Below are positions 282 through 31,932 of a DNA stretch of 64,000 nucleotides, in pieces. Source of the DNA: Chitinophagales bacterium (lineage in GTDB: Bacteria > Bacteroidota > Bacteroidia > Chitinophagales > Chitinophagaceae); NCBI GenBank assembly GCA_017303395.1, contig JAFLBN010000001.1, positions 372,001 through 436,000 on the forward strand, in the 5' to 3' direction. The position numbers were made by a program, and so were the translations under genes. The notes under the pieces were generated by a model that was given only the letters and a program-made list of their open reading frames with translations, was not told the origin of the DNA and ran no database searches. How positions within the stretch are numbered: position 1 is the stretch's first letter; each line of letters starts with the position of its first letter.

Positions 282-1523
282 ATGAATATCAATGTTGCTT
301 TAGCTATTGCAAGCTATGTGAGAAAGGACGGAACTGCCGCAATTGTTATTCGGGTAAGCAAAGGAAAGCAGACCCGTGACCTACCCACCCGGTATACAAT
401 TCCTGTCAATCAGTGGAACGACAAAAAGCGTCAGGTTAAAGGCACCTATACTGGTGTTAGCTCGGTGACGCAACTTAACAATCAACTTAAAGTAGATTTG
501 AAGGTTGTGAATGATAATCTGCTGGCCCTGGAACAGGCAGGTATGGTAGAGGCAATCCCCTTCCCGGAACTTGTGAAGCGGCTTTCTAGTTTGGAAAAGG
601 AGTATTGCTTCTTTGCCTTTGCTGATGCTGTGATTATTGCGTTAAAAGAAGCAAAAAGAATTGGTACCATGAACGCATATTCTGACGCGGTAAAAGCGGT
701 TGAAAATTTTCACGGGTCAAGGTATCTACCATTGCAACAACTAAATTTTGATTTCCTCCAAAAAATGGAAACGGCACATTTAGCGAAGGGGAACGGCCTG
801 AATGGATTGGCAGCATATATGCGCTCGATCCGCGCAATATATAACCTTGCCATCAAATCGGGGAAAATAGAAGACAAATTCTATCCCTTCAAGAAATATA
901 CTATTAGGACTGAAAGGACACAGAAACGTGCAATTAGCTACGAACTATTGCAAGCAATCATGTCTGTTAAGCTCGAGCCAGGTCATATTTGCTTTGATGC
1001 ACGAAACAAATTCCTGATTAGCTATATGCTCTACGGGATGAATTTCTATGATATGGCGTTGCTTGAAAGAAAGAATCTGATTGATGGCCGCGTGCAGTAC
1101 CAACGCAATAAAACAAGCGCGCCATTCAACGTAAAAATTACGCCTGCATTGCAGGCGTTGCTTGATTTGTATATTAAGCCTGGTCAGAAGTCGATTTTTA
1201 ATGTGGTTAAGCGTAGCGATCCTATTTTACAAGATAAGGACATCAAAAATGCAAGGCGGCTTTTCAACGACCGTCTGAAAGACTTAGCGGAACTATGCGA
1301 GATTCAAACTAACTTGACAAGCTATGTAAGCAGGCACTCATTTGCTACTCACGCGAAACTGCATAAAATCCCCATCGAGGCAATCAGCGAAATGCTCGGA
1401 CATACAAGCATAAAGACAACGCAAATTTACCTTGACTCCTTACCGAGTGCAACCCTCGATGGCTACAACGACCTAATACTGAATTCCGGTTCAGATGTTG
1501 CAAAAGCTTCATCGGCATACTGA
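282..1523 (+). CDS. int: Tyrosine recombinase/integrase (Bacteroidota arm-binding type)
   Basis: This 413-residue site-specific recombinase should catalyse integration and excision of the element at tRNA-Asn. The N-terminal ~90 residues resemble the arm-DNA-binding domain of Bacteroidota integrases, followed by a SAM-like core-binding domain (about 105-205) and the catalytic domain (about 215-400). Visible catalytic motifs are the K region RNKTSAPF, the box-II motif SRHSFATH, and GHTSIKTTQIYLDSL with the tyrosine nucleophile. The first catalytic arginine, expected before the GMNF motif, is not obvious: the sequence reads LYGMNF. Many relatives vary here, so this may not mean loss of activity. 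The gene lies 140 bp from attL and converges on the ubiquitin-like operon. Confidence 0.9.
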   Translation: MNINVALAIASYVRKDGTAAIVIRVSKGKQTRDLPTRYTIPVNQWNDKKRQVKGTYTGVSSVTQLNNQLKVDLKVVNDNLLALEQAGMVEAIPFPELVKRLSSLEKEYCFFAFADAVIIALKEAKRIGTMNAYSDAVKAVENFHGSRYLPLQQLNFDFLQKMETAHLAKGNGLNGLAAYMRSIRAIYNLAIKSGKIEDKFYPFKKYTIRTERTQKRAISYELLQAIMSVKLEPGHICFDARNKFLISYMLYGMNFYDMALLERKNLIDGRVQYQRNKTSAPFNVKITPALQALLDLYIKPGQKSIFNVVKRSDPILQDKDIKNARRLFNDRLKDLAELCEIQTNLTSYVSRHSFATHAKLHKIPIEAISEMLGHTSIKTTQIYLDSLPSATLDGYNDLILNSGSDVAKASSAY

Positions 1524-1537
1524 TATAAATATAGCTA

Positions 1538-1969
1538 TCATGCACTAGTATAATAGAACCACTTTTGCTCAATCCATTTTAAGAATCTTCTCCAGAAAGG
1601 CTTTTTCACACCTCTGTTTTTGCTCGAATAATATTCCTTGAGTTTCTTTTGTTCTCTCGCTCTTCCGTGCTTTATCTCTTTATCTGTCCAAGAGTATGAC
1701 CATTCAATTTTACCGTCCCTAATCCAGTAGTGCGTTCTACATGGCAGTTGCCAGTTGCCAACTGAAGGGTAAAGGCTAGGTTTTCCAGCTTTCACCGATA
1801 ATGACCATTCGTGTGGGCCTAAAGGAGTAATGATTTTCGTTAGGCATCCACATGGGCAAAGATGGGCTGCCACTTTGAAGCGTTCAGAAACATACAGGAT
1901 ACCCTCATCAATACTTTTAGGGATTGATTCTACTTTTTCCAGGTTAACTTTAGAGGTCATTGTCGCCAA
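1538..1969 (-). CDS. DUF6527 protein, putative zinc-binding Ubl-system component
   Basis: A 143-residue protein with the signature of DUF6527: CPCGC at 38-42 (C38, C40, C42), then GNWQLPC and RTHYWI (C77, H80). These residues likely form a zinc site. The C-terminus (about 97-143) is highly basic and aromatic. The start codon overlaps the end of the E1 gene by 20 bases, so the two are probably translationally coupled. DUF6527 genes are recurrently found beside ThiF/E1 and multiubiquitin-type genes; their biochemical role is, to my knowledge, unassigned. No recognisable E2 exists here, so this protein is the best candidate for a conjugation, transfer or deconjugation role, but that is inference. 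Confidence 0.82.
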   Translation of the reverse strand: MATMTSKVNLEKVESIPKSIDEGILYVSERFKVAAHLCPCGCLTKIITPLGPHEWSLSVKAGKPSLYPSVGNWQLPCRTHYWIRDGKIEWSYSWTDKEIKHGRAREQKKLKEYYSSKNRGVKKPFWRRFLKWIEQKWFYYTSA

Positions 1970-3143
1970 TATTTTTGCTATCGCTTATGTCGAATAGCAT
2001 ATTAAAATAATTGCCTTTATCCGAATAAAACCCTCGTGTTTGCTTGTATCTAAGTACCGCTAAACTAGCATTGATAGCATTAAGTTCAGCAATTTGAATA
2101 TTTGTCCTGTAGACATCGTCTGGATAGTCTGCCATCGGTGCAAGTTTCTTTTCAGCAATTTCAGCGGCGTGCTCGGTGGGATAATATGTTGTTCTAATCA
2201 TTCCTCCGATCATACCATTGTCCCGCTGAAGTCCCATGCCAACGTCAATAAAAGGAATCCCCCTTTCAATTAGTAGTTTGATTATTCCTGCTCTAGATGA
2301 ACCTTTGTCAACGCAGACAAAAGCAAAGGATACGCCCTGTAAATCATCTATACATGTCTCATCAATAAACTTTGGCGTTAGAATTACATTGTACCGGAAA
2401 TTGTCATAGCGACTTTGATATACTTCAGCCTTTTGTTTTCCGAAGTCAGCTTCCGATAGTGCTCCGGGTGATCTAAAGGCATTATGTACATGATATTGAT
2501 CATGGTCAAAGCCTCTTATTTCCTTCACTGGTGACTTTACGAGGAAATCCAGAACAAAGGAGCCAGTGCCACCTAAACCTATTATTGCGATCACGTCTTC
2601 ATTCAGCTTAGCAGATAGGTCGCCAATCTCTGCTCTGCTCGTTAGGGTATCATATATTTTAAAAACGGAATTCCCTGCGCATTCATATTCTCGAAAAGTG
2701 TATGGTGTGCTTTCAGGAAATTTCGTCATCGCTGGTCCCGAAAACAACGCAACGTAGTTCTCAATTTTATCAAAATGATCTGCATACGCGCCAGTAGCTG
2801 TAGGTTTATTTGAAAATGATCGCTCAACGGTTAGGTCCGAAGAGGCTAATGTAATAGTCATTTCACCGCCACCAAGATTGGCAATCCTTTGTCCATTCAT
2901 TTCATGCGGATGCGAACCACAGAAAAATATTTGGTGGTCTACTTGACTGACGCGGTGCCTATCAATTCGGTTTAGTTTGGAGACAATGGCACCTGTTTTG
3001 AGATTCCCCTCACTATCTAAGTAGGGGATATCTCTTACTACCAGGTGCTCACTATCTATTGCAATAGCATAGCCTTTTTCTAACAGACGCTTGAGGTCAT
3101 CATTATGATTGACCAGTTGGTGTAACTGTGAATTCCATTCCAT
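1950..3143 (-). CDS. ThiF/E1-like ubiquitin-activating enzyme
   Basis: A 397-residue protein. Residues ~183-345 form a ThiF/E1 adenylation domain: ATP loop GLGGTG at 189-194, FDHD at 212-215, HNAFR at 220-224 (Asn221, Arg224), FGKQKA at 234-239 and CVD at 277-279. This should adenylate the C-terminus of the ubiquitin-like protein encoded just upstream. Residues 1-180 are a separate N-terminal region I cannot assign firmly (possibly the DUF6791 type often fused to ThiF) and contain C75 and C155 and an HPH motif. There is no cysteine after C277, so the usual E1 thioester cysteine downstream of the adenylation site is missing. The start at 3143 overlaps the modifier gene by 41 bases, indicating coupled translation. 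Confidence 0.88.
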   Translation of the reverse strand: MEWNSQLHQLVNHNDDLKRLLEKGYAIAIDSEHLVVRDIPYLDSEGNLKTGAIVSKLNRIDRHRVSQVDHQIFFCGSHPHEMNGQRIANLGGGEMTITLASSDLTVERSFSNKPTATGAYADHFDKIENYVALFSGPAMTKFPESTPYTFREYECAGNSVFKIYDTLTSRAEIGDLSAKLNEDVIAIIGLGGTGSFVLDFLVKSPVKEIRGFDHDQYHVHNAFRSPGALSEADFGKQKAEVYQSRYDNFRYNVILTPKFIDETCIDDLQGVSFAFVCVDKGSSRAGIIKLLIERGIPFIDVGMGLQRDNGMIGGMIRTTYYPTEHAAEIAEKKLAPMADYPDDVYRTNIQIAELNAINASLAVLRYKQTRGFYSDKGNYFNMLFDISDSKNIGDNDL

Positions 3144-3393
3144 CTTTTACTTTTACTTTTCCTCCGGGTGATAAAATTCCTTCAGGCTTGTTCCCTTGAC
3201 CTCGCACATACTTCACCGAATAGTTGCGTTCCGGGTGCTGCGGAAAATCAGGGAATGCCAGTGTAACAACTTCTTCGTAGGATATTTCATCCTTTTCTAC
3301 TTGTTCAGCAGAACTGTTGACGTAGATAGTTACTTTTTTCTTTTCTCGATCTTTACCTTGACTATTGTCATTAGGTTTTTGTGTTTGACTCAT
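3103..3393 (-). CDS. Single-domain multiubiquitin-family ubiquitin-like protein
   Basis: A 96-residue protein matching one repeat of the bacterial multiubiquitin family. A charged flexible N-terminus (1-19) precedes a beta-grasp-like domain (about 20-96) with a VTIYVN strand, ISYEEVVTLAF, ERNYSVKYVRG and a final strand EFTVTPTGQS. Most relatives carry tandem copies; here there is only one. The protein ends in TGQS and not in a di-glycine, so either the last residues are trimmed, the tail is activated as it stands, or it is not conjugated. It lies between DUF2188 (10 bases upstream) and the E1 (overlapping), which makes it the presumed substrate of that E1. Confidence 0.85.
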   Translation of the reverse strand: MSQTQKPNDNSQGKDREKKKVTIYVNSSAEQVEKDEISYEEVVTLAFPDFPQHPERNYSVKYVRGQGNKPEGILSPGGKVKVKDGMEFTVTPTGQS

Positions 3394-3403
3394 ATATTTG
3401 GTT

Positions 3404-3646
3404 TTAATGTTTGCTGTCTTTAGGCGGGTTTGGGTCGTTGCCAGGCTTTACGGTATCACTATCTCTGATTTTTCCATTAAGTCCATGTATCCTGACCTCG
3501 CCTCCGCCTGAATTCGCCGAAAATTGCTTTGCCATCTTTTCAGCGTCCTTTTGTGTGTCAGCGTGACCACTGGATTTGCTACCTCCCTCTTTTGTTACGC
3601 GCCAGTTCCCCTTTTCTTTATCTTTTGAAACATGATAGTTTGCCAT
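3404..3646 (-). CDS. DUF2188 family small protein
   Basis: An 80-residue protein with the DUF2188 pattern: a conserved NWRVTKEG strand, a SSGHADTQKDAEKMAKQ helix and a GGGEVRIHGLNGKIRDSDT C-terminal motif. Its function is unknown. It is the first gene of the four-gene minus-strand operon, ten bases upstream of the ubiquitin-like gene, and is headed by a TATATTTG promoter box. It may be a substrate, regulator or accessory of the Ubl system, or an unrelated passenger; the sequence does not decide. Confidence 0.8.
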   Translation of the reverse strand: MANYHVSKDKEKGNWRVTKEGGSKSSGHADTQKDAEKMAKQFSANSGGGEVRIHGLNGKIRDSDTVKPGNDPNPPKDSKH

Positions 3647-3676
3647 TACGTATGTGTTTAATTGTTAATAATATTG

Positions 3677-3782
3677 CAAATATAGCACTGCTTAATTTAT
3701 CAAGCAAATATTTAGCAAACTTTTTTTTAACAAGCATAAAACAAGCAATACTTGCTTATTTTAGCGTTGTGAACTACCTTTG
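3677..3782. promoter_or_regulatory. Divergent promoters with shared CAAGCA operator cluster
   Basis: The 150-base gap between the DUF2188 and XRE genes carries promoters facing both ways. On plus, TACCTTTG (3775-3782) lies 14 bases before the XRE ATG, with a TTG at 3752-3754 as the -33 element. On minus, TATATTTG (3684-3677) heads the Ubl operon, with a TTG at 3707-3705 as its -33. CAAGCA occurs at 3701, 3731 and 3742, and the last copy belongs to a perfect palindrome, AAGCAATACTTGCTT (3743-3757). Both -33 elements fall inside copies of the motif, so one repressor, most likely the adjacent XRE protein, could silence both directions. Confidence 0.65.
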
Positions 3783-3796
3783 TATAAACAAATCGT

Positions 3797-4150
3797 ATGT
3801 CATTAGGTAAAAAATTGAAGGATGCCCGAGAGCATTTGCTAATGACTTTGAGGCAAGTTGAAGACGCTACGGGCATATCAAACGCGTATTTAAGTCAGCT
3901 CGAGAATGATAAGATTCAAAAGCCATCTGCAAACATTCTTTATAAGCTAGCGACTATTTACAAGGTAAATCTGAATGCTTTGTTGGCTGCCGCTGGTATC
4001 ATTCAAGATGCTACAAATTCTGTCGGTGTGTCGGAGGAAGATAAGATATTAAGTAATATTGCATTTTATGCTGAAAACTTAAGTAACGAAGAAAAGAATG
4101 AAGTACTTGAGTATATAAAGTTCCTACGTCACAAAAAGAAGAATGCTTGA
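3797..4150 (+). CDS. XRE-family transcriptional regulator (ImmR-like)
   Basis: A 117-residue protein with an N-terminal helix-turn-helix of the XRE/Cro-CI type (about 4-62; LRQVEDATGISNAYLSQLE is the recognition region). The short C-terminal tail may mediate dimerisation. Its stop overlaps the start of the ImmA-type protease gene by 8 bases. In ICEBs1 and many phages an ImmR-like repressor is inactivated by its ImmA partner after DNA damage; the same arrangement here is inferred from gene order. The likely targets are its own promoter and that of the divergent Ubl operon, given the CAAGCA palindrome over the -33 boxes. Confidence 0.9.
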   Translation: MSLGKKLKDAREHLLMTLRQVEDATGISNAYLSQLENDKIQKPSANILYKLATIYKVNLNALLAAAGIIQDATNSVGVSEEDKILSNIAFYAENLSNEEKNEVLEYIKFLRHKKKNA

Positions 4151-5045
4151 CACCTACACTAGGCTACAAATAGAAAAAGTTGCTTTTGAACTGCTGAAAT
4201 CTAGCAAGGCGCTGGACAGATATCCAACGCCTGTAGATGATATTGTTGCTCATGCTGAATTGCTTGTTGAAATGGGGGTAGACCTTTCGAAGATTGAAAC
4301 TTCATTCTTCAAAAAACTGTCTATTGATTTTACAAAGATAATGACCAAGGTTCGAGGCATTCTTGATCGTAAGGAAAAAACAATTTATTTAGACCTTAGT
4401 CAGCCGCACAGCAGAAGAAATTTCGTCAAACTACATGAAGCTGGTCATCACCTTCTACCCTGGCAAAAAGCAATATTCGATTGTGTAGATACAGACCAAA
4501 CTTTATCTCATGAAGTTAATGAGCAGTTCGAAGAAGAGGCAAACTATTTTGCATCAACGGTACTATTCCAGCATGATCGATTCCAAGACCAAGTAGCTAA
4601 GTTGGATTTAAGTATTGGAGCTACTCTTACATTAGCCAAAACATTTGGAGCATCAAATCATGCGACAATGAGGAAGTTTGTCGAAACTTCCAACAAGCGC
4701 TGTGCATTGTTAGTGCTTGAGAAGCATGAATTAGCAGGTAGGACTCCGCTTTATAAAGCTCGTGATTATTTTCAGTCAGATAAGTTTTCAGCTTCATTTG
4801 GGAATGTGGCTTGGCCTGAACAATTTGGATATAACTGGGAGTTTGTGAAAGATTACTATCATGGTAGACGAATGAAGGTTGATGGTAGCATTACATTAAC
4901 TACTGATTCTGGGGAAGAAGTTTTTGAGTACCATTTCTTCAATACAACATATAACGGCTTTGTCCTTATTTTCCCATTAAAGGAAAATAAAAAATCAAAA
5001 AAAATAACCTACGTAACCGGGGTTGCAAAGAAAACAAAGTTGTAA
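4143..5045 (+). CDS. ImmA/IrrE family metallopeptidase
   Basis: A 300-residue zinc peptidase with the HExxH motif in LHEAGHHLLPW (about residues 98-108) and the downstream acidic helix FEEEANYFASTVLF that supplies the third metal ligand. The family (ImmA, IrrE, PprI) cleaves XRE-type or DdrO-type repressors on damage or stress. The C-terminal half (about 170-300) is an additional domain of unknown role. The gene overlaps the regulator gene, so the two form a regulator-antirepressor pair. It converges on dnaE2 with no intergenic space (5045/5046), joining the regulatory module to the mutagenesis block. Confidence 0.9.
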   Translation: MLDTYTRLQIEKVAFELLKSSKALDRYPTPVDDIVAHAELLVEMGVDLSKIETSFFKKLSIDFTKIMTKVRGILDRKEKTIYLDLSQPHSRRNFVKLHEAGHHLLPWQKAIFDCVDTDQTLSHEVNEQFEEEANYFASTVLFQHDRFQDQVAKLDLSIGATLTLAKTFGASNHATMRKFVETSNKRCALLVLEKHELAGRTPLYKARDYFQSDKFSASFGNVAWPEQFGYNWEFVKDYYHGRRMKVDGSITLTTDSGEEVFEYHFFNTTYNGFVLIFPLKENKKSKKITYVTGVAKKTKL

Positions 5046-8000
5046 CTATTTAAAATTACGGCCTTGCGGGAATATCTCACCCTGATAGGTTGGTTTTGCC
5101 TGCTGTGGCTTCCGTTCATCAACAAATGTCCCATCGTTGTTATCCGCACCGGATAACGTCTGTAATTGCCGGTAATTGTTTTCTGCTTCGCCAAGCTGTT
5201 TCAGCATTTTCGACATATCGTGGCATTTGCTCACGATCACGTGCGTGACTTCCCCTTCTCTTTGCAATTTCCCTTCGACCATTAAGAAGGTTGCACGTAA
5301 TATCTCCTTGCGGTAGGTTTCAAAGAGGCTTGCCCAAACCACGAGGTTTGCAAATCCCGTTTCATCTTCGATGGTAATAAAACACACACCTGCTGCTGTG
5401 CCTGGGCGCTGGCGTACAAGTACTAGCCCTGATACCTTTACCCATGTACCATCTTTGCAATCAGCCAACCCAGCGGTGGTCAAAATATTAAGCTGTGTCA
5501 TTTTCTCACGGACGAACGCGACAGGGTGCTTTTTGAGCGATAGCGACATACTGCCGTAGTCATGCACTACATGCTCGGAAAGCGTCATGGCTGGAAGTGT
5601 AACACCCGTTTCTGCCACGCTTTCGGAGCTTTGCCCGGTATAGATGCCATTGGGTCTATCAGCCAGGGCAGACACTTCCCAAATTGCCTGCCTGCGGTCA
5701 AGCCCGATAGACCGGAAGGCATCGGCATCAGCCAGCCTTTCAATGGCTGCTATTGAGACACCAACGTCCATTAATTCTGTAATTCTGGTGAAGGGTTTAT
5801 GCCTGCCAGCGACAAGAACCGTCATATCATCTTCGCGCAGACCTTTCACCTGTCTGAAGCCGAGCCGCATGGATTTGTATTTGCCGACTTGTTCTTCAAG
5901 GGTGTTATCCCAAAAGGAATGATTGATGTCCACGGGGCGAAGTTCGACACCGTGTTTGCGTGCGTCACTCACAAGTTGGGCAGGTTGATAAAAGCCCATT
6001 GGTTGACTATTGAGAAGCCCCGCACAAAAGATGTCTGGATAATAGCATTTGATCCAACAGGACACATACACAAGCAAAGCAAAGCTGGCAGCATGGCTTT
6101 CAGGAAAACCATATGCACCAAAGCCTTCAAGCTGGCGCATGATGCGGGTTGCAAAGTCATGTGTATAGCCTCGTTCAAGCATACCTTCAATCAAACGCCT
6201 TTCAAACTGGTTCACTGTGCCTTTCATTTTGAAAGTTGCCATACTGCGGCGCAACTCGTCTGCCTCAGCGGGTGTAAAGCCTGCTGCAACAATCGCAATC
6301 TTCATCACCTGTTCCTGAAACAACGGCACACCTAAAGTCCGTCCTAAAATTTCTTCAAGGTCTTTAGATGGATAGGTTACTGGTTCTTCGCCATTGCGCC
6401 TGCGCAAATAGGGATGCACCATGTCACCCTGAATAGGGCCAGGACGCACAATAGCAACCTCGATTACGAGGTCATAGAAGTTCTTGGGTTTCAGGCGTGG
6501 CAGCATGGATTGCTGTGCCCTGCTCTCAATCTGAAACACGCCAATAGTATCGGCATGTCCTACCATTTCATAAACGGCGGGATCATCCTGCGGGATGTTC
6601 GCTAAGGTTAATGCTAATCCATAATGTTGTTTAGCCAGGTCGAAACATTTACGTATGCAGGTCAACATACCTAAAGCCAGCACGTCAATCTTAAGAAAGC
6701 CGAGCGCATCTATATCGTCTTTGTTCCATTCAATATTCGTGCGCTTTTCCATCCTTGCATTCAGGATGGGGCATAAATCCGTGATCTTGTCCTGCGTAAT
6801 GACAAAGCCACCTGTATGTTGTCCGAGCTGACGCGGAAAACCCATGAACTGCCTTGTCAATTCCAATACTTTGATAAGATGCTTGTCTTCGGGATTAAAC
6901 CCCTGATCGCTGATGCGATTACCTTCAAACCATTCGTCTGTAAATTCCCAGATAGATTTTGATAGTCGGTTAACGGCATCAACGGACATTCCCATTGCTT
7001 TAGCAACGTCTCGTATAGCTCCCTTCTGCCGTTGCATAGTAACGGTCGCTACAATCCCGGCGCGGTCACGTCCATACTTCTCATAGATATATTGAATAAC
7101 TTCTTCACGGCGTTCATGCTCAAAGTCCACGTCAATATCTGGCGGCTCGTTACGTGCTGATGATATAAAGCGTTCAAACAGCAAATCGAATTTAGTTGGG
7201 TCAACGGATGTGATGCCTAACACAAAGCAGATCGTTGAATTGGCAGCCGACCCCCTGCCTTGACAAAGGATGTCTTTCTCACGCGCGAAACGCACAATAT
7301 CATACACCGTTAGAAAGTACGGTGCGTAATCCATCTGCTTAATAAAGGCTAATTCATGATTGATGTTTGTAATTACCTTTTCAGGTAATGGTTCACCATA
7401 GTAATCTTTAGCGCCTTGCCAAGCCAGGTCAACAAGTTCATCATAGGGTGGCCTGCCGTTGGTGATTTCTTCGGGGTACACGTATTTGAGTTCACTCAAA
7501 GAAAATTGACAAGCTGAAGCAATCTCGGCTGTGCGTTCAATTGCATCAGGATATTGCATGAACAGCCTTTGCATCTCTTTTTCATTTTTGAGATACCGCT
7601 CGGCGTTTTGATGCAATCTGTAACCAGCATTATATATCGTGCATTTCTCACGCACACAAGTCACGATGTCCTGAAGCTCTCGGCGTTCAGGGATATGATA
7701 ATGCACATCATTGGTTGCAATGAGCGGAATGTCGAATTCATCTGATAAGTGCGAAAGGATGGATAAACGCTTTGCATCATTCGCCTGATACGTGCGCGAT
7801 GCACCTAAATAAACATGACTACCAAAATTCTGTTTGTACTCTCTAACAGCATTGATAAAATCACTTTCAAATTCAAACTCACTGTTAATGGTTACAGGCG
7901 GAACAATAATAAATTTCATCCCTGTTGCTGCTGCATATATATCAGCTTTATAGAGATCACACTTACCTTTTTCAGTGCGCAAGTTTCCTGTTGATAGCAA

Positions 8001-8270
8001 GCCTGAAAGCCTGGCATATGCGTCTTTATTGGTGGGGTAAGCAAGCAGACTAAACCCGTCAAGCAGGTCAAGGCGGCAACCTACTATCAGACGGATGCCT
8101 GCTTTCTTTGCAGCACTATGCGCACGAACAATACCAGCAAGCGTGTTGCGGTCTGTGATTGCGATATGAGTATAGCCTAGTTCTGCGGCATAACTCACCA
8201 GTTCTTCAGGATGCGATGCCCCGCGCAAAAAACTGAAATTTGATGTGACTTGTAATTCTGTGTAATGCAT
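5046..8270 (-). CDS. dnaE2: Error-prone DNA polymerase DnaE2
   Basis: A 1074-residue alpha subunit of the C-family DNA polymerase III, of the DnaE2/ImuC type that performs damage-tolerant synthesis with ImuA and ImuB. It shows an N-terminal PHP domain (SNFSFLRGASHPEELV), the palm motif with catalytic aspartates in PDIDVDFEHERREE (about 390-405), a helix-hairpin-helix and a C-terminal OB-fold region. The start was set at 8270 because conserved sequence begins at MHYTELQVTSNFSF and the stop of imuB is 11 bases upstream. It is the last gene of imuA-imuB-dnaE2. Carriage on a mobile element is notable. Confidence 0.95.
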   Translation of the reverse strand: MHYTELQVTSNFSFLRGASHPEELVSYAAELGYTHIAITDRNTLAGIVRAHSAAKKAGIRLIVGCRLDLLDGFSLLAYPTNKDAYARLSGLLSTGNLRTEKGKCDLYKADIYAAATGMKFIIVPPVTINSEFEFESDFINAVREYKQNFGSHVYLGASRTYQANDAKRLSILSHLSDEFDIPLIATNDVHYHIPERRELQDIVTCVREKCTIYNAGYRLHQNAERYLKNEKEMQRLFMQYPDAIERTAEIASACQFSLSELKYVYPEEITNGRPPYDELVDLAWQGAKDYYGEPLPEKVITNINHELAFIKQMDYAPYFLTVYDIVRFAREKDILCQGRGSAANSTICFVLGITSVDPTKFDLLFERFISSARNEPPDIDVDFEHERREEVIQYIYEKYGRDRAGIVATVTMQRQKGAIRDVAKAMGMSVDAVNRLSKSIWEFTDEWFEGNRISDQGFNPEDKHLIKVLELTRQFMGFPRQLGQHTGGFVITQDKITDLCPILNARMEKRTNIEWNKDDIDALGFLKIDVLALGMLTCIRKCFDLAKQHYGLALTLANIPQDDPAVYEMVGHADTIGVFQIESRAQQSMLPRLKPKNFYDLVIEVAIVRPGPIQGDMVHPYLRRRNGEEPVTYPSKDLEEILGRTLGVPLFQEQVMKIAIVAAGFTPAEADELRRSMATFKMKGTVNQFERRLIEGMLERGYTHDFATRIMRQLEGFGAYGFPESHAASFALLVYVSCWIKCYYPDIFCAGLLNSQPMGFYQPAQLVSDARKHGVELRPVDINHSFWDNTLEEQVGKYKSMRLGFRQVKGLREDDMTVLVAGRHKPFTRITELMDVGVSIAAIERLADADAFRSIGLDRRQAIWEVSALADRPNGIYTGQSSESVAETGVTLPAMTLSEHVVHDYGSMSLSLKKHPVAFVREKMTQLNILTTAGLADCKDGTWVKVSGLVLVRQRPGTAAGVCFITIEDETGFANLVVWASLFETYRKEILRATFLMVEGKLQREGEVTHVIVSKCHDMSKMLKQLGEAENNYRQLQTLSGADNNDGTFVDERKPQQAKPTYQGEIFPQGRNFK

Positions 8271-8281
8271 CTTATTTCGTT

Positions 8282-9778
8282 TTAGGCAAAGAAGCCGTGA
8301 ATAAACCATTTGGGTTCATGACTGCGATAGTGTCCTAAACGAAACACCCAATAACGTGCGCCTTTTTCATCTTCGACACAGTAATAGTCACGATATAAAC
8401 CTTGCTCAATCCACCATTCCTGTTCAATGCGTTCAGGACCATCGGCTTTTTTTATACGATGTAAATTGCCTTTGTGTTTAAACAGGATGGGCGGATAATC
8501 GGGCATGGCAACTGTCACATCAATTAATTCAGGATCACGCAGCAAATGCACCGGGCGAGGCAATTCACTCTGCCAAGTTGTTGTGGCTTCTTCTTCAAGT
8601 GATTTCGCTTCTTTATATGAACGCTCTGGCCAGTGATGTTCATCAGGCAGGTAGCGGTGTATCGTGTGCATACCGACTTTTACTGCGATGCGGTCAAGTA
8701 GTTCCGCAAGCTCCTTTTGGCGATTGTAACTGAAATTCCAGATTGCCTCCTGATTGCTGGATAATGGCTCAACAACTGGTGCCTCTAGCACAAAGAGTTC
8801 AATCCCCAGGGCGGGCATGATTTGCCCGATTTTGATTTCAAAGAGTTTGAAAAGATGCGCGGCATTGCGTGATGCTCTTGCAGTGCCAATATCAATGCTC
8901 TGAATAATGTTGTCTATCCGATAGCATTTAAAAACTGCTTTACGCAATCCCTTTTCTTCGGCTGTAAGGCGCTTGCAGAGTTTGTCCAATAGTTCACGCA
9001 AGGCATATTCGATTGCTGTTGCGGTTCTTACAGGTTCAAGGCTTGGCAGTCGTTCCAAAAATGCTTCTATTGGTTTTACGGGAGTAAGCATTTCAATCTC
9101 CTGGCCTAAGGCTTTATCCAATTGTGATAGCAAGGTCTGACCGAAGCGTCTGCGCAAGGCTGACCGAGGCATTGTCATAAACTTACCTATCTCGGTCAGT
9201 CCTAGCTTTTCCAGCCGGTCAGTCGTTGCGGTATCCAGTCTAAGGGCGGCAGGTGGTAGCAGCTTTAGCGCTTCGACCTGACCGCCTGGCTCTATAACGG
9301 GGTTTAGATGCCCATAGCGAGCGATTGCCCAAGCGCAGCCTACGGTATCAGCCATACCTGGCCGGACCGTATAGCCGAAGGCTTTTAAGCGTCCTAACAG
9401 GTCTTTGAGATAAGGCACCTCACCTTCCCAAAGGTGGGTGCAGCCGCTAGCGTCTAAAATCAGCCCATCAGGCGGGTCTATTGCGGCTATGGGTGTATAA
9501 CGAATGCACCATTCGGCAAGGGCAGTTAGCAGGGTAATATCTTTCCCATGCTGGTCGTCAAAGACCTGCAAACTGGGCAGGATGGCTCTGCCATCGGCAA
9601 CCACCATTCCTGTAGAAATGCCGCTGGCTGCAGCAATGGGGTTAACAGCTTTTACGACCATTCGCCCCCTTTCGGGTGCGGCAAATACGAATGGCACGTC
9701 TTTGAGTTCCGGTCTACGGCGGGTTAGCCAGTCCGTAGTCAAATGACGGAACCATATTGAGACAAAACGCTTGGACAT
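8282..9778 (-). CDS. imuB: Y-family polymerase-like protein ImuB
   Basis: A 498-residue DinB/UmuC-fold protein. The palm/finger region spans about 1-240 and the little-finger and long C-terminal tail follow. The acidic catalytic residues of active Y-family polymerases are absent: the first motif reads IWFRHLTTDW, and the second region reads DPPDGLILDASG where DinB has an SxDE motif. ImuB is known as an inactive polymerase acting as the hub that links ImuA, DnaE2 and the beta clamp. It lies 2 bases after imuA and 11 before dnaE2, so the three are one transcript. Confidence 0.93.
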   Translation of the reverse strand: MSKRFVSIWFRHLTTDWLTRRRPELKDVPFVFAAPERGRMVVKAVNPIAAASGISTGMVVADGRAILPSLQVFDDQHGKDITLLTALAEWCIRYTPIAAIDPPDGLILDASGCTHLWEGEVPYLKDLLGRLKAFGYTVRPGMADTVGCAWAIARYGHLNPVIEPGGQVEALKLLPPAALRLDTATTDRLEKLGLTEIGKFMTMPRSALRRRFGQTLLSQLDKALGQEIEMLTPVKPIEAFLERLPSLEPVRTATAIEYALRELLDKLCKRLTAEEKGLRKAVFKCYRIDNIIQSIDIGTARASRNAAHLFKLFEIKIGQIMPALGIELFVLEAPVVEPLSSNQEAIWNFSYNRQKELAELLDRIAVKVGMHTIHRYLPDEHHWPERSYKEAKSLEEEATTTWQSELPRPVHLLRDPELIDVTVAMPDYPPILFKHKGNLHRIKKADGPERIEQEWWIEQGLYRDYYCVEDEKGARYWVFRLGHYRSHEPKWFIHGFFA

Positions 9779-9780
9779 GA

Positions 9781-10539
9781 TTAAGCTGTTTTGCGTGTTT
9801 GAATTTCGGTAGCGACTTCTTGTGGGCTAAGATGCTGAAAGCCTTGTTTCGACCATTCTATGTCCCAGGCGCTGGGTCTGCCATTACGGACTTTAGATAA
9901 TTCAACATGCCATCTGGAAAATCCGACACCTGGCAAGGTGGGATGGTCGCTTGCAAGCGAGGCAATTTTCCAACGCGCTGCACATGCAAGCGTGTTTTCG
10001 CTGCGAGGGTTATAGCGATGCAATAAGCCAGTGACATTGCTTTGCTCAACAGCAAGTTGCAAGCGGCGGGAATCGTTAAAACTGATTTCGCTAAGTTCTC
10101 CGATAACCAATGTTAAAGACTGACATTTCAATGCTTCTTCTACTGCCCATAGCACGTCCTTTTGTTTTGCAAGGTCGATACATATCACACGCGCAGCATC
10201 TATGCCATATTGCTTTAATGATGGGGGGTAAAGTGTGCGTCTTGTACTGATCCAAAGGCATGAGCCGTGCTGCTGCATAAGACGCCCAGCCAGGGCAATC
10301 ATAAAGCCTGACGTTGCAGCGGCATTGGGTGTTTGATAACTGATAAACTCATGAACGGCACCTGTAGGAAAGGTGCTTTCAGGGAAAGCTTTAGCAATCG
10401 GACCAAGCCCCAAATCAGATACTTCTGATTTAGGTTTTCTGAATCGTTGCAAGGCGAAAACTTCTTCTTGCAGTTGCTGTATAAGCCCAGATTTGTTGGA
10501 CGGGCTGCCGATAGTTGCGATTGCTTTTGCACGTTCCAT
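9781..10539 (-). CDS. imuA: ImuA, RecA-like mutasome protein
   Basis: A 252-residue ImuA-family protein with a RecA-like core (about 60-215): GAVHEFISYQTPNAAATSGF takes the place of the P-loop, and a clear Walker A GK(T/S) is missing, as is common in ImuA. The start at 10539 (MERAKAIATIG) is preferred over 10578 because a TAATTTTG promoter box lies between them (10571-10564), about 25 bases upstream of the chosen ATG. It is the first gene of the mutagenesis operon and is presumably induced by DNA damage. Confidence 0.9.
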   Translation of the reverse strand: MERAKAIATIGSPSNKSGLIQQLQEEVFALQRFRKPKSEVSDLGLGPIAKAFPESTFPTGAVHEFISYQTPNAAATSGFMIALAGRLMQQHGSCLWISTRRTLYPPSLKQYGIDAARVICIDLAKQKDVLWAVEEALKCQSLTLVIGELSEISFNDSRRLQLAVEQSNVTGLLHRYNPRSENTLACAARWKIASLASDHPTLPGVGFSRWHVELSKVRNGRPSAWDIEWSKQGFQHLSPQEVATEIQTRKTA

Positions 10540-10558
10540 AGGTTTATGATTTGAACAC

Positions 10559-10606
10559 TTGTACAAAATTAAAGTCATTTTTTAGATATTTTTGTACATT
10601 TGTATC
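10559..10606 (-). promoter_or_regulatory. imuA promoter with GTAC-type operator candidates
   Basis: On the minus strand a TAATTTTG box (10571-10564) fits the Bacteroidota -7 element for imuA. The palindrome TTGTACAA overlaps it (10559-10566), and a related TTTGTAC-A-TTTGTATC tandem lies at 10591-10606, where the -33 element would be. Two related motifs covering both promoter elements suggest repression, probably a damage-responsive one, but no known box sequence was matched. Confidence 0.45.
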
Positions 10607-31849: not shown

Positions 31850-31858
31850 ACTGGTTTG

Positions 31859-31932
31859 CTCCCCCTTCAGGACTTGAACCTGAGACCCCCTGATTAACAG
31901 TCAGGTGCTCTAACCAACTGAGCTAAGGAGGA
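31859..31932 (-). tRNA. tRNA-Asn (GTT), with attR
   Basis: On the minus strand the sequence folds as a 74-nt tRNA: acceptor stem TCCTCCT/AGGGGGA with discriminator G, D arm GCTC-AGTTGGTT-AGAGC, anticodon arm CCTGA-CTGTTAA-TCAGG with anticodon GTT, and T arm TCAGG-TTCAAGT-CCTGA. CCA is not encoded. The last 48 bases (31858-31905 on plus) duplicate the left att site, so this is attR and the 3' part is element-derived but identical. The tRNA should stay functional. Confidence 0.97.

Follow-up and report, generated by a model that had tools for sequence, protein, structure and literature searches.

The stretch of DNA analysed here (the window) comprises 64,000 nt of a Chitinophagales bacterium (assembly GCA_017303395.1, contig JAFLBN010000001.1, positions 372,001–436,000 of the forward strand), and carries at positions 1538–3646 an operon for a ubiquitin-like protein (Ubl) and its activating (E1-like) enzyme. 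Open reading frames (ORFs) checked against the sequence form one tight minus-strand unit of four overlapping or abutting genes, in agreement with an earlier sequence-only reading of this DNA. The first gene (3404–3646) encodes an 80-aa DUF2188 protein (PF09954, E = 1.4e-19), an optional partner upstream of Ubl that also matches the PADLOC candidate model PDC-S16 (1.2e-20). It is followed after a gap of 10 bases by the gene of the Ubl (3103–3393), a protein of 96 aa with a single Multi_ubiq beta-grasp domain (PF14452, 1.1e-13; PDB 9CD2, 1.5e-7) and the end ...TPTGQS, the terminal Ser being encoded at 3106–3108. The E1-like enzyme (1950–3143, overlapping the Ubl gene by 41 bases) has 397 aa and combines a DUF6791 domain (PF20590, 3.5e-42; residues 15–166, positions 2646–3101), our proposed stand-in for a conjugating enzyme (E2), with a ThiF domain (PF00899, 5e-13). 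The last gene (1538–1969) encodes a 143-aa DUF6527 protein (PF20137, 7e-24) with CxCxC and CxxH motifs and an invariant Ser69; its ORF starts with TTG at 1969 or alternatively with ATG at 1960, and the overlap with the E1 gene is 20 or 11 bases by choice of this start. The Pfam assignments of these four proteins are not due to chance.

None of the four operon proteins has a Pfam match to an E2 or to a JAB protease, and profile search with Prok-E2_E and Prok-JAB over the whole source genome (3.76 Mb, 44 contigs) gave no match. Hence, the absence of E2 and JAB genes noted in the sequence-only reading holds. The Prok-E2_E model matched none of 14 control genomes, yet matched 8 of 395 other genomes. 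PADLOC models of E1–E2 proteins gave a weak match to the ThiF part of the window E1 only (best 2.3e-7). The same genome has a second core of Ubl, E1 and DUF6527 genes on another contig (C42, locus L001), with a longer Ubl that has two Multi_ubiq matches, and again without E2 or JAB.

Relatives of the E1 were found in 117 plasmid records, 108 of them covering at least 80% of its length, and a genome scan gave at least 471 relatives, of which the best 80 loci were kept. These 80 loci come from many bacterial phyla, plus one bin labelled Candidatus Nitrosopumilus, an archaeon, whose core operon (L083) may reflect transfer or mis-binning. The nearest named relative found was that of Chitinophaga oryziterrae (69% identity); a locus of the same genus (L003; 74%) also has DUF2188 and a helix-turn-helix (HTH) gene. 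In the set of 96 loci (the window, L001 and L003–L096; L002 is the window itself and was omitted), which were picked by E1 likeness and include some near-copies, Ubl lies upstream of E1 in 94 and DUF6527 downstream in 94, and both are present in 93. The search for conserved DUF6527–E1–Ubl neighbourhoods that the sequence-only reading had proposed thus gave a positive result. Ubl is missing from L093, where the contig ends 13 bases from the start of the match, DUF6527 from L071, and both from L096 (contig end); E1 frames are broken in L027, L051 and L063. All 91 aligned Ubls match Multi_ubiq in Pfam and none matches Prok-E2_E. Neighbours within 4.5 kb were clustered by BLAST for 94 loci (L093 and L096 omitted), and among clusters common to at least three loci none looked like E2 or JAB by eye; single-locus neighbours were not scanned. 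Homologues of DUF2188 lie near the core at 16 of the 94 loci including the window, with a median distance of 17 bases at the 15 others, so all four genes do co-occur elsewhere. The DUF6791-type operon is thus a real, conserved and widespread type, and not the unusual minimal operon that the sequence-only reading took it for; a JAB-less subset was already noted in 2006 (PMC1779556). Phage carriage has little support, as the phage collection held no E1 relative and only four viral contigs had one, in one case a 24-residue match at the contig end. At three of the 94 loci a gene for a patatin-type phospholipase, a possible added effector, lies at the DUF6527 end (e.g. L054:7474–8559, Pfam 3.8e-31).

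Operons with Multi_ubiq fall into two kinds. In 395 Bacteroidota genomes, Pfam models found Multi_ubiq in 22, DUF6791 in 14 and Prok-E2_E in 8, and the 22 include all 14 DUF6791 genomes and 7 of the 8 Prok-E2_E genomes (G018 is the exception). DUF6791 and Prok-E2_E were never found in one genome (0/395), and together they cover 21 of the 22 Multi_ubiq genomes; in the remaining one (G241), inspection by eye showed an E2-like gene (L128) that the Pfam model missed. The loci of the second, JAB type that were examined have Ubl, E2 (separate or fused to Ubl) and JAB–ThiF, with DUF6527 in most. Among JAB-type members tested, Prok-E2_E matched in L130, L133, L134, L141 and L143, Prok-JAB matched in L143 (3.3e-9) and stayed below the cut-off in L133 (1.5e-4), and DUF6527 matched in L134 and L143; DUF6527 is annotated in 7 of the 10 JAB-type plasmid loci examined. 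The E1 of L133 matches BubCD over its length (1.8e-80) and the E2 of L130 matches BubB (7e-22), which identifies the JAB-type loci as Bub. In Rhizobium phaseoli (L143) the order is HTH, ImmA, DUF2188, Ubl, E2, JAB–E1 and DUF6527, all on one strand. This is the gene set of the window with E2 and JAB instead of DUF6791, whereas the regulators of the window are divergent. Ubl, E2 or DUF6791, E1 and DUF6527 follow one another in the same order in both types.

Bub operons have been described as consisting of Ubl, E1, E2 and protease (PMC12687455). With Citrobacter Bub (BubA, BubB, BubCD; PDB 9EA4, 9EA5, 9EA8, 9EAE and 9EAV) the window system shares a homologous E1, gene order and CapH/CapP-type neighbours, and its Multi_ubiq Ubl family and DUF6527 are found in JAB-type relatives of BubCD. 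However, it differs in having neither Prok-E2_E (BubB) nor JAB (BubC), in the DUF6791 domain fused to E1, and in a Ubl that ends with Ser and not Gly. Iyer et al. described in 2006 a JAB-less subset of their type 6e, in which an uncharacterised N-terminal domain, guessed to be JAB-like, takes the JAB place in E1 (PMC1779556). The E1 with N-terminal domain, the one to three Ubl domains and the putative zinc-finger protein of that subset are all matched here, and the window operon very probably belongs to it, which would make the 2006 domain DUF6791. The subset is thus known, and so far as the literature found shows it is apparently uncharacterised. The type 6e passages of PMC1779556 make no mention of a Ser C-terminus. 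Neither the exclusion of the Bub E2 nor the Ser-ending Ubl was mentioned in the literature searched, a search outside which the main recent Bub papers, which may contain them, fell. The chain of PDB 9CD2 (ZDHYS365 multi-ubiquitin domain protein) ends with ...TQTDKS and is also of the Ser-ending kind, although it has 222 aa compared with the 96-aa, one-domain Ubl of the window. Bil and type II CBASS Cap2/Cap3 likewise have bacterial E1-type activation near defence genes, but the window system lacks their E2 and JAB. It further differs from canonical ubiquitination by having neither a Gly-Gly Ubl tail nor catalytic E1/E2 cysteines.

The two types also differ at the Ubl C-terminus. The last residue is Ser at 107 of 109 DUF6791-type loci (92/94 in the 96-locus set and 15/15 further distinct loci), the exceptions being L068 with Ala and L051 with its broken frame. 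Thr stands at the fourth residue from the end in all 91 aligned Ubls, and not in L099 and L120. In JAB-type Ubls (L127–L134, L137 and L139–L146; the Ubl of L138 was not located), the corresponding place was Gly by eye in 16 of 17 (exception L128), and residues beyond this Gly, either E2 or a tail, follow in 11 of the 16. These Ubl ends fit a role of JAB as processing protease in Bub, one that would be dispensable in the DUF6791 type. The final Ser is not a mere by-product of the Ubl/E1 overlap, since Ubls of all seven non-overlapping loci also end in Ser, including L063 with a broken E1. Its codons are TCN in 92 of 92 cases and never AGY, so that common ancestry or a constraint on the nucleotide sequence may play a part in it.

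Gene content, its conservation, the exclusion pattern, the C-terminal Ser and the lack of an invariant E1 cysteine are direct observations. Taken as a whole, they may best be explained by a conjugation system with DUF6791 for E2, a mature Ubl and loss of JAB, and we give this explanation, and with it the placing of the window system as a branch of its own next to the Bub pathways, about an even chance. In this model, the Ubl would be synthesised in its mature form and adenylated at its C-terminal Ser by the ThiF domain. Being fused ahead of E1, DUF6791 would replace the Bub E2 (BubB, Prok-E2_E) and offer the activated Ubl to its target or an acceptor. With nothing on Ubl to trim, the JAB protease could be lost. 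DUF6527, which is common to JAB-type Bub, would act afterwards in a step shared by both types, the simplest role being to recognise the target or acceptor. A CapH-like repressor encoded beside the operon would hold transcription off, and a CapP-like protease would cut the CapH-like protein under DNA damage and so release it. Transfer would probably occur without an E1 cysteine thioester. No cysteine is invariant over the 91 aligned E1s, and a cysteine as catalyst was rejected because the best column, C277, holds Cys in only 78 of 91, with A or S otherwise. A more specific form, which we regard as tentative, is a cysteine-free, E2-free, one-way tagging, in which DUF6791–E1 would activate the Ser-ending Ubl and hand it to targets without a thioester relay. 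In such tagging, JAB loss and the Gly-to-Ser switch would be coupled, as no removal or trimming would be needed. This branch appears to dispense with two components of Bub, E2 and JAB protease, and Bub itself has been studied only recently. The terminal residue, Ser where JAB-type Ubls have Gly, and the strictness of the exclusion bear on ubiquitin-like conjugation without a standard E2, perhaps without thioesters.

We hypothesize that DUF6791 takes the E2 place on the basis of gene position, exclusion with Prok-E2_E and its occurrence as a separate ORF at two loci (L135 and L136, with DUF6791 of 155 and 151 aa and ThiF of 251 and 245 aa). In addition, helices and strands follow one another in the DUF6791 model in an order that looks compatible with the fold of ubiquitin-conjugating enzymes. 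Several results weigh against this view and its wider setting. A comparison of DUF6791 with 17 Prok-E2_E sequences by hhalign, run with decoys and shuffles, gave prob 1.2 and E = 0.045; trimmed profiles gave a best local match in the wrong register, and its score was also reached by shuffled profiles, 4, 15 and 25 times out of 120 with blocks of 1, 8 and 20 columns, respectively. No Pfam E2 match was obtained in 32 DUF6791 domains. The E1 tree (58 rows: 38 DUF6791, 17 JAB and 3 others) places DUF6791 E1s in one group with support 100/99, and L135 and L136 sit inside this group, indicating that their split is derived. The tree, which has long branches, does not settle whether the DUF6791 group is closer to JAB-type E1s than to other ThiF proteins. 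Moreover, CapP-like and WYL-type neighbours are both missing from 34 of the 90 loci for which 1.5 kb or more of upstream sequence was available. In the decoy check, a neighbour cluster (cluster 10, WYL-type by eye) gave P of 0.058 and 0.038, near the 0.045 and 0.017 of E2, and a high ThiF score came from residues common to both alignments at the domain border. Sequence comparison thus gave no significant support for a hidden E2, and a motif likeness seen by eye (xSxKP versus WSRH, DGxPI) was dropped as evidence for the same reason. The suggestion of the sequence-only reading that the E1 N-terminal region supplies the missing step therefore stands in part: the strongest candidate for the E2 place is DUF6791, but the profile test of its E2 likeness failed.

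Alternatively, DUF6791 might replace JAB and not E2, acting as a hydrolase that removes Ubl in a system without any E2. A JAB-like role of this domain was the speculation of 2006 (PMC1779556), and DUF6791 indeed has the N-terminal place that JAB holds in E1s of the JAB type. Eleven residues are invariant in the 91 E1s (H70, S111, Y130, D165, D199, D213, H220, R224, K238, Y246 and D279), and the polar H70, S111, Y130 and D165 among them would suit this role. However, Ubls that end at their final residue require no trimming, gene order and exclusion suit the E2 place as well, and no Pfam protease family matched in the 32 DUF6791 domains. We consider the JAB replacement rather unlikely.

The E1 model (pLDDT 91.7) gave BubCD chains at Foldseek ranks 1–7 (best E = 3e-13), followed by PaaA, MccB, UBA5 and ThiF; a viral fold search gave ThiF-type proteins at the top and weak unrelated ones below. 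The ThiF-domain profile of DUF6791-type E1s matched that of JAB-type E1s with E = 2.6e-21 by hhalign. With single sequences, four JAB-type E1s gave E values of 1.3e-10 to 1.9e-14, against 9.2e-6 to 5.4e-8 for three other ThiF proteins. Small-molecule or peptide chemistry, in which the enzyme would activate the Ubl C-terminus and modify it in the manner of MccB, ThiF or PaaA, fits the E values of PaaA, MccB, UBA5 and ThiF, all within about two orders of magnitude of BubCD, as well as the lack of an invariant E1 cysteine and the C-terminal Ser in place of Gly. Nevertheless, BubCD comes first in the fold ranking, and the Ubl family, Multi_ubiq, and DUF6527 are shared with operons that encode E2 and JAB, which makes such chemistry improbable compared with conjugation. 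According to the title of PDB 9EAV, D104 and Y370 of BubCD were changed by the depositors, and Y370 is the Tyr of 'RGY' (chain numbering, offset 2). Tyr345 of the window E1 (codon at 2109–2111, minus strand; Tyr in 90 of 91 E1s) is a possible counterpart: hhalign pairs it with BubCD Tyr370, whereas MAFFT pairs it with another column.

The sequence-only reading had also offered DUF6527 as supplier of the missing step. This was not confirmed, because DUF6527 is found as well where a Bub-type operon encodes E2 and JAB themselves, so that a special role in replacing either is unlikely. C38, C40, C42 and Ser69 are invariant in 89 of 89 DUF6527 proteins, and C77 and H80 in 88, the remaining sequence having a gap there; in the JAB-type DUF6527 proteins examined, C40 is often absent. 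A PDB fold search with the model (pLDDT 91.2) returned nothing at E ≤ 0.001, the best hit having E = 0.61, and scattered weak matches to USP deubiquitinases were taken as noise. A conjugating role, with these invariant cysteines accepting Ubl from E1 in a new E2/E3 of unmatched fold, is doubtful, since DUF6527 is present also beside E2, its cysteines are gone in L143, and C-x3-C plus C-x2-H resembles a metal site, a reading already given to a comparable signature in 2006 (PMC1779556). A similar protein was proposed there as zinc finger and target adaptor, and the type 6e signature is C-x3-C-x(35-38)-H-x2-C versus C-x3-C-x34-C-x2-H in the window. The L143 protein (L143:4455–4823) lacks both cysteine pairs and keeps the Pro-Ser pair.

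Divergently from the operon, a plus-strand gene pair at 3797–5045 encodes a CapH-like HTH regulator (3797–4150; PADLOC capH 3.1e-11) and a CapP-like ImmA/IrrE (M78) metalloprotease (4143–5045; PADLOC capP 7.6e-22, PF06114 5.9e-11). The sequence-only reading mentioned neither this pair nor DUF6791 as a named family. Between the divergent units lies a candidate operator (3727–3773), an imperfect inverted repeat of 22 nt with 77% complementarity and 3 nt between the arms. TAnnTTTG-like boxes, which we take to be Bacteroidota promoter boxes, were seen by eye on both strands around it (3650–3790). In the neighbour clustering, the CapP-like protease cluster occurs at 51 of 94 loci, and HTH proteins form three clusters, of 13, 11 and 10 loci; among the 90 loci with sufficient upstream sequence, 49 have a CapP-like protease and 7 have a member of one of two WYL-type clusters. 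In Bub, CapW or CapH and CapP adjoin 219 of 544 operons, a frequent and not strictly defining feature, and the repressor CapH is cut by the protease CapP under DNA damage (PMC13373217). In a 2016 study, 70% of PF14452 proteins adjoined HTH/DUF955 pairs, which were read as toxin–antitoxin loci (PMC4963859). One JAB-type Ubl (L131:3187–3744) has an N-terminal DUF1508 region, presumably YegP-type, fused to Multi_ubiq (5.2e-37). DUF2188 beside Ubl elsewhere may be a stand-alone counterpart of this region.

The operon adjoins a tyrosine recombinase (282–1523, plus strand; PF13102 3.7e-13, PF00589 1.2e-11). Kiwa lies at 16.7–18.4 kb (KwaB 1.2e-63, KwaA 1.8e-55), and ArdC (PF08401, 2.7e-31), a relaxase and a type IV secretion system coupling protein lie at 20.7–27 kb, in accordance with the mobile element with Kiwa and ArdC recognised from the sequence alone. 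An anti-phage defence role of the operon is putative and rests on this context of Kiwa and CapH/CapP-like neighbours; for Bub, protection against phage has not been shown according to a 2026 paper (PMC13373217). Two tyrosine recombinases in all and a tRNA-Asn gene (31858–31932) are present in the window. The segment 28393–31932, with an Arm-DNA-bind_3 integrase, a HATPase protein with a PADLOC REase_II match (1.4e-10) and this tRNA-Asn, is perhaps the island edge. Directly behind the CapP-like gene, a large polymerase-like ORF, an ImuB-like ORF and a third ORF (5046–10578) form what we take to be a DnaE2 mutagenesis cassette, and a DNA-damage theme shared with the CapP-like gene is possible.

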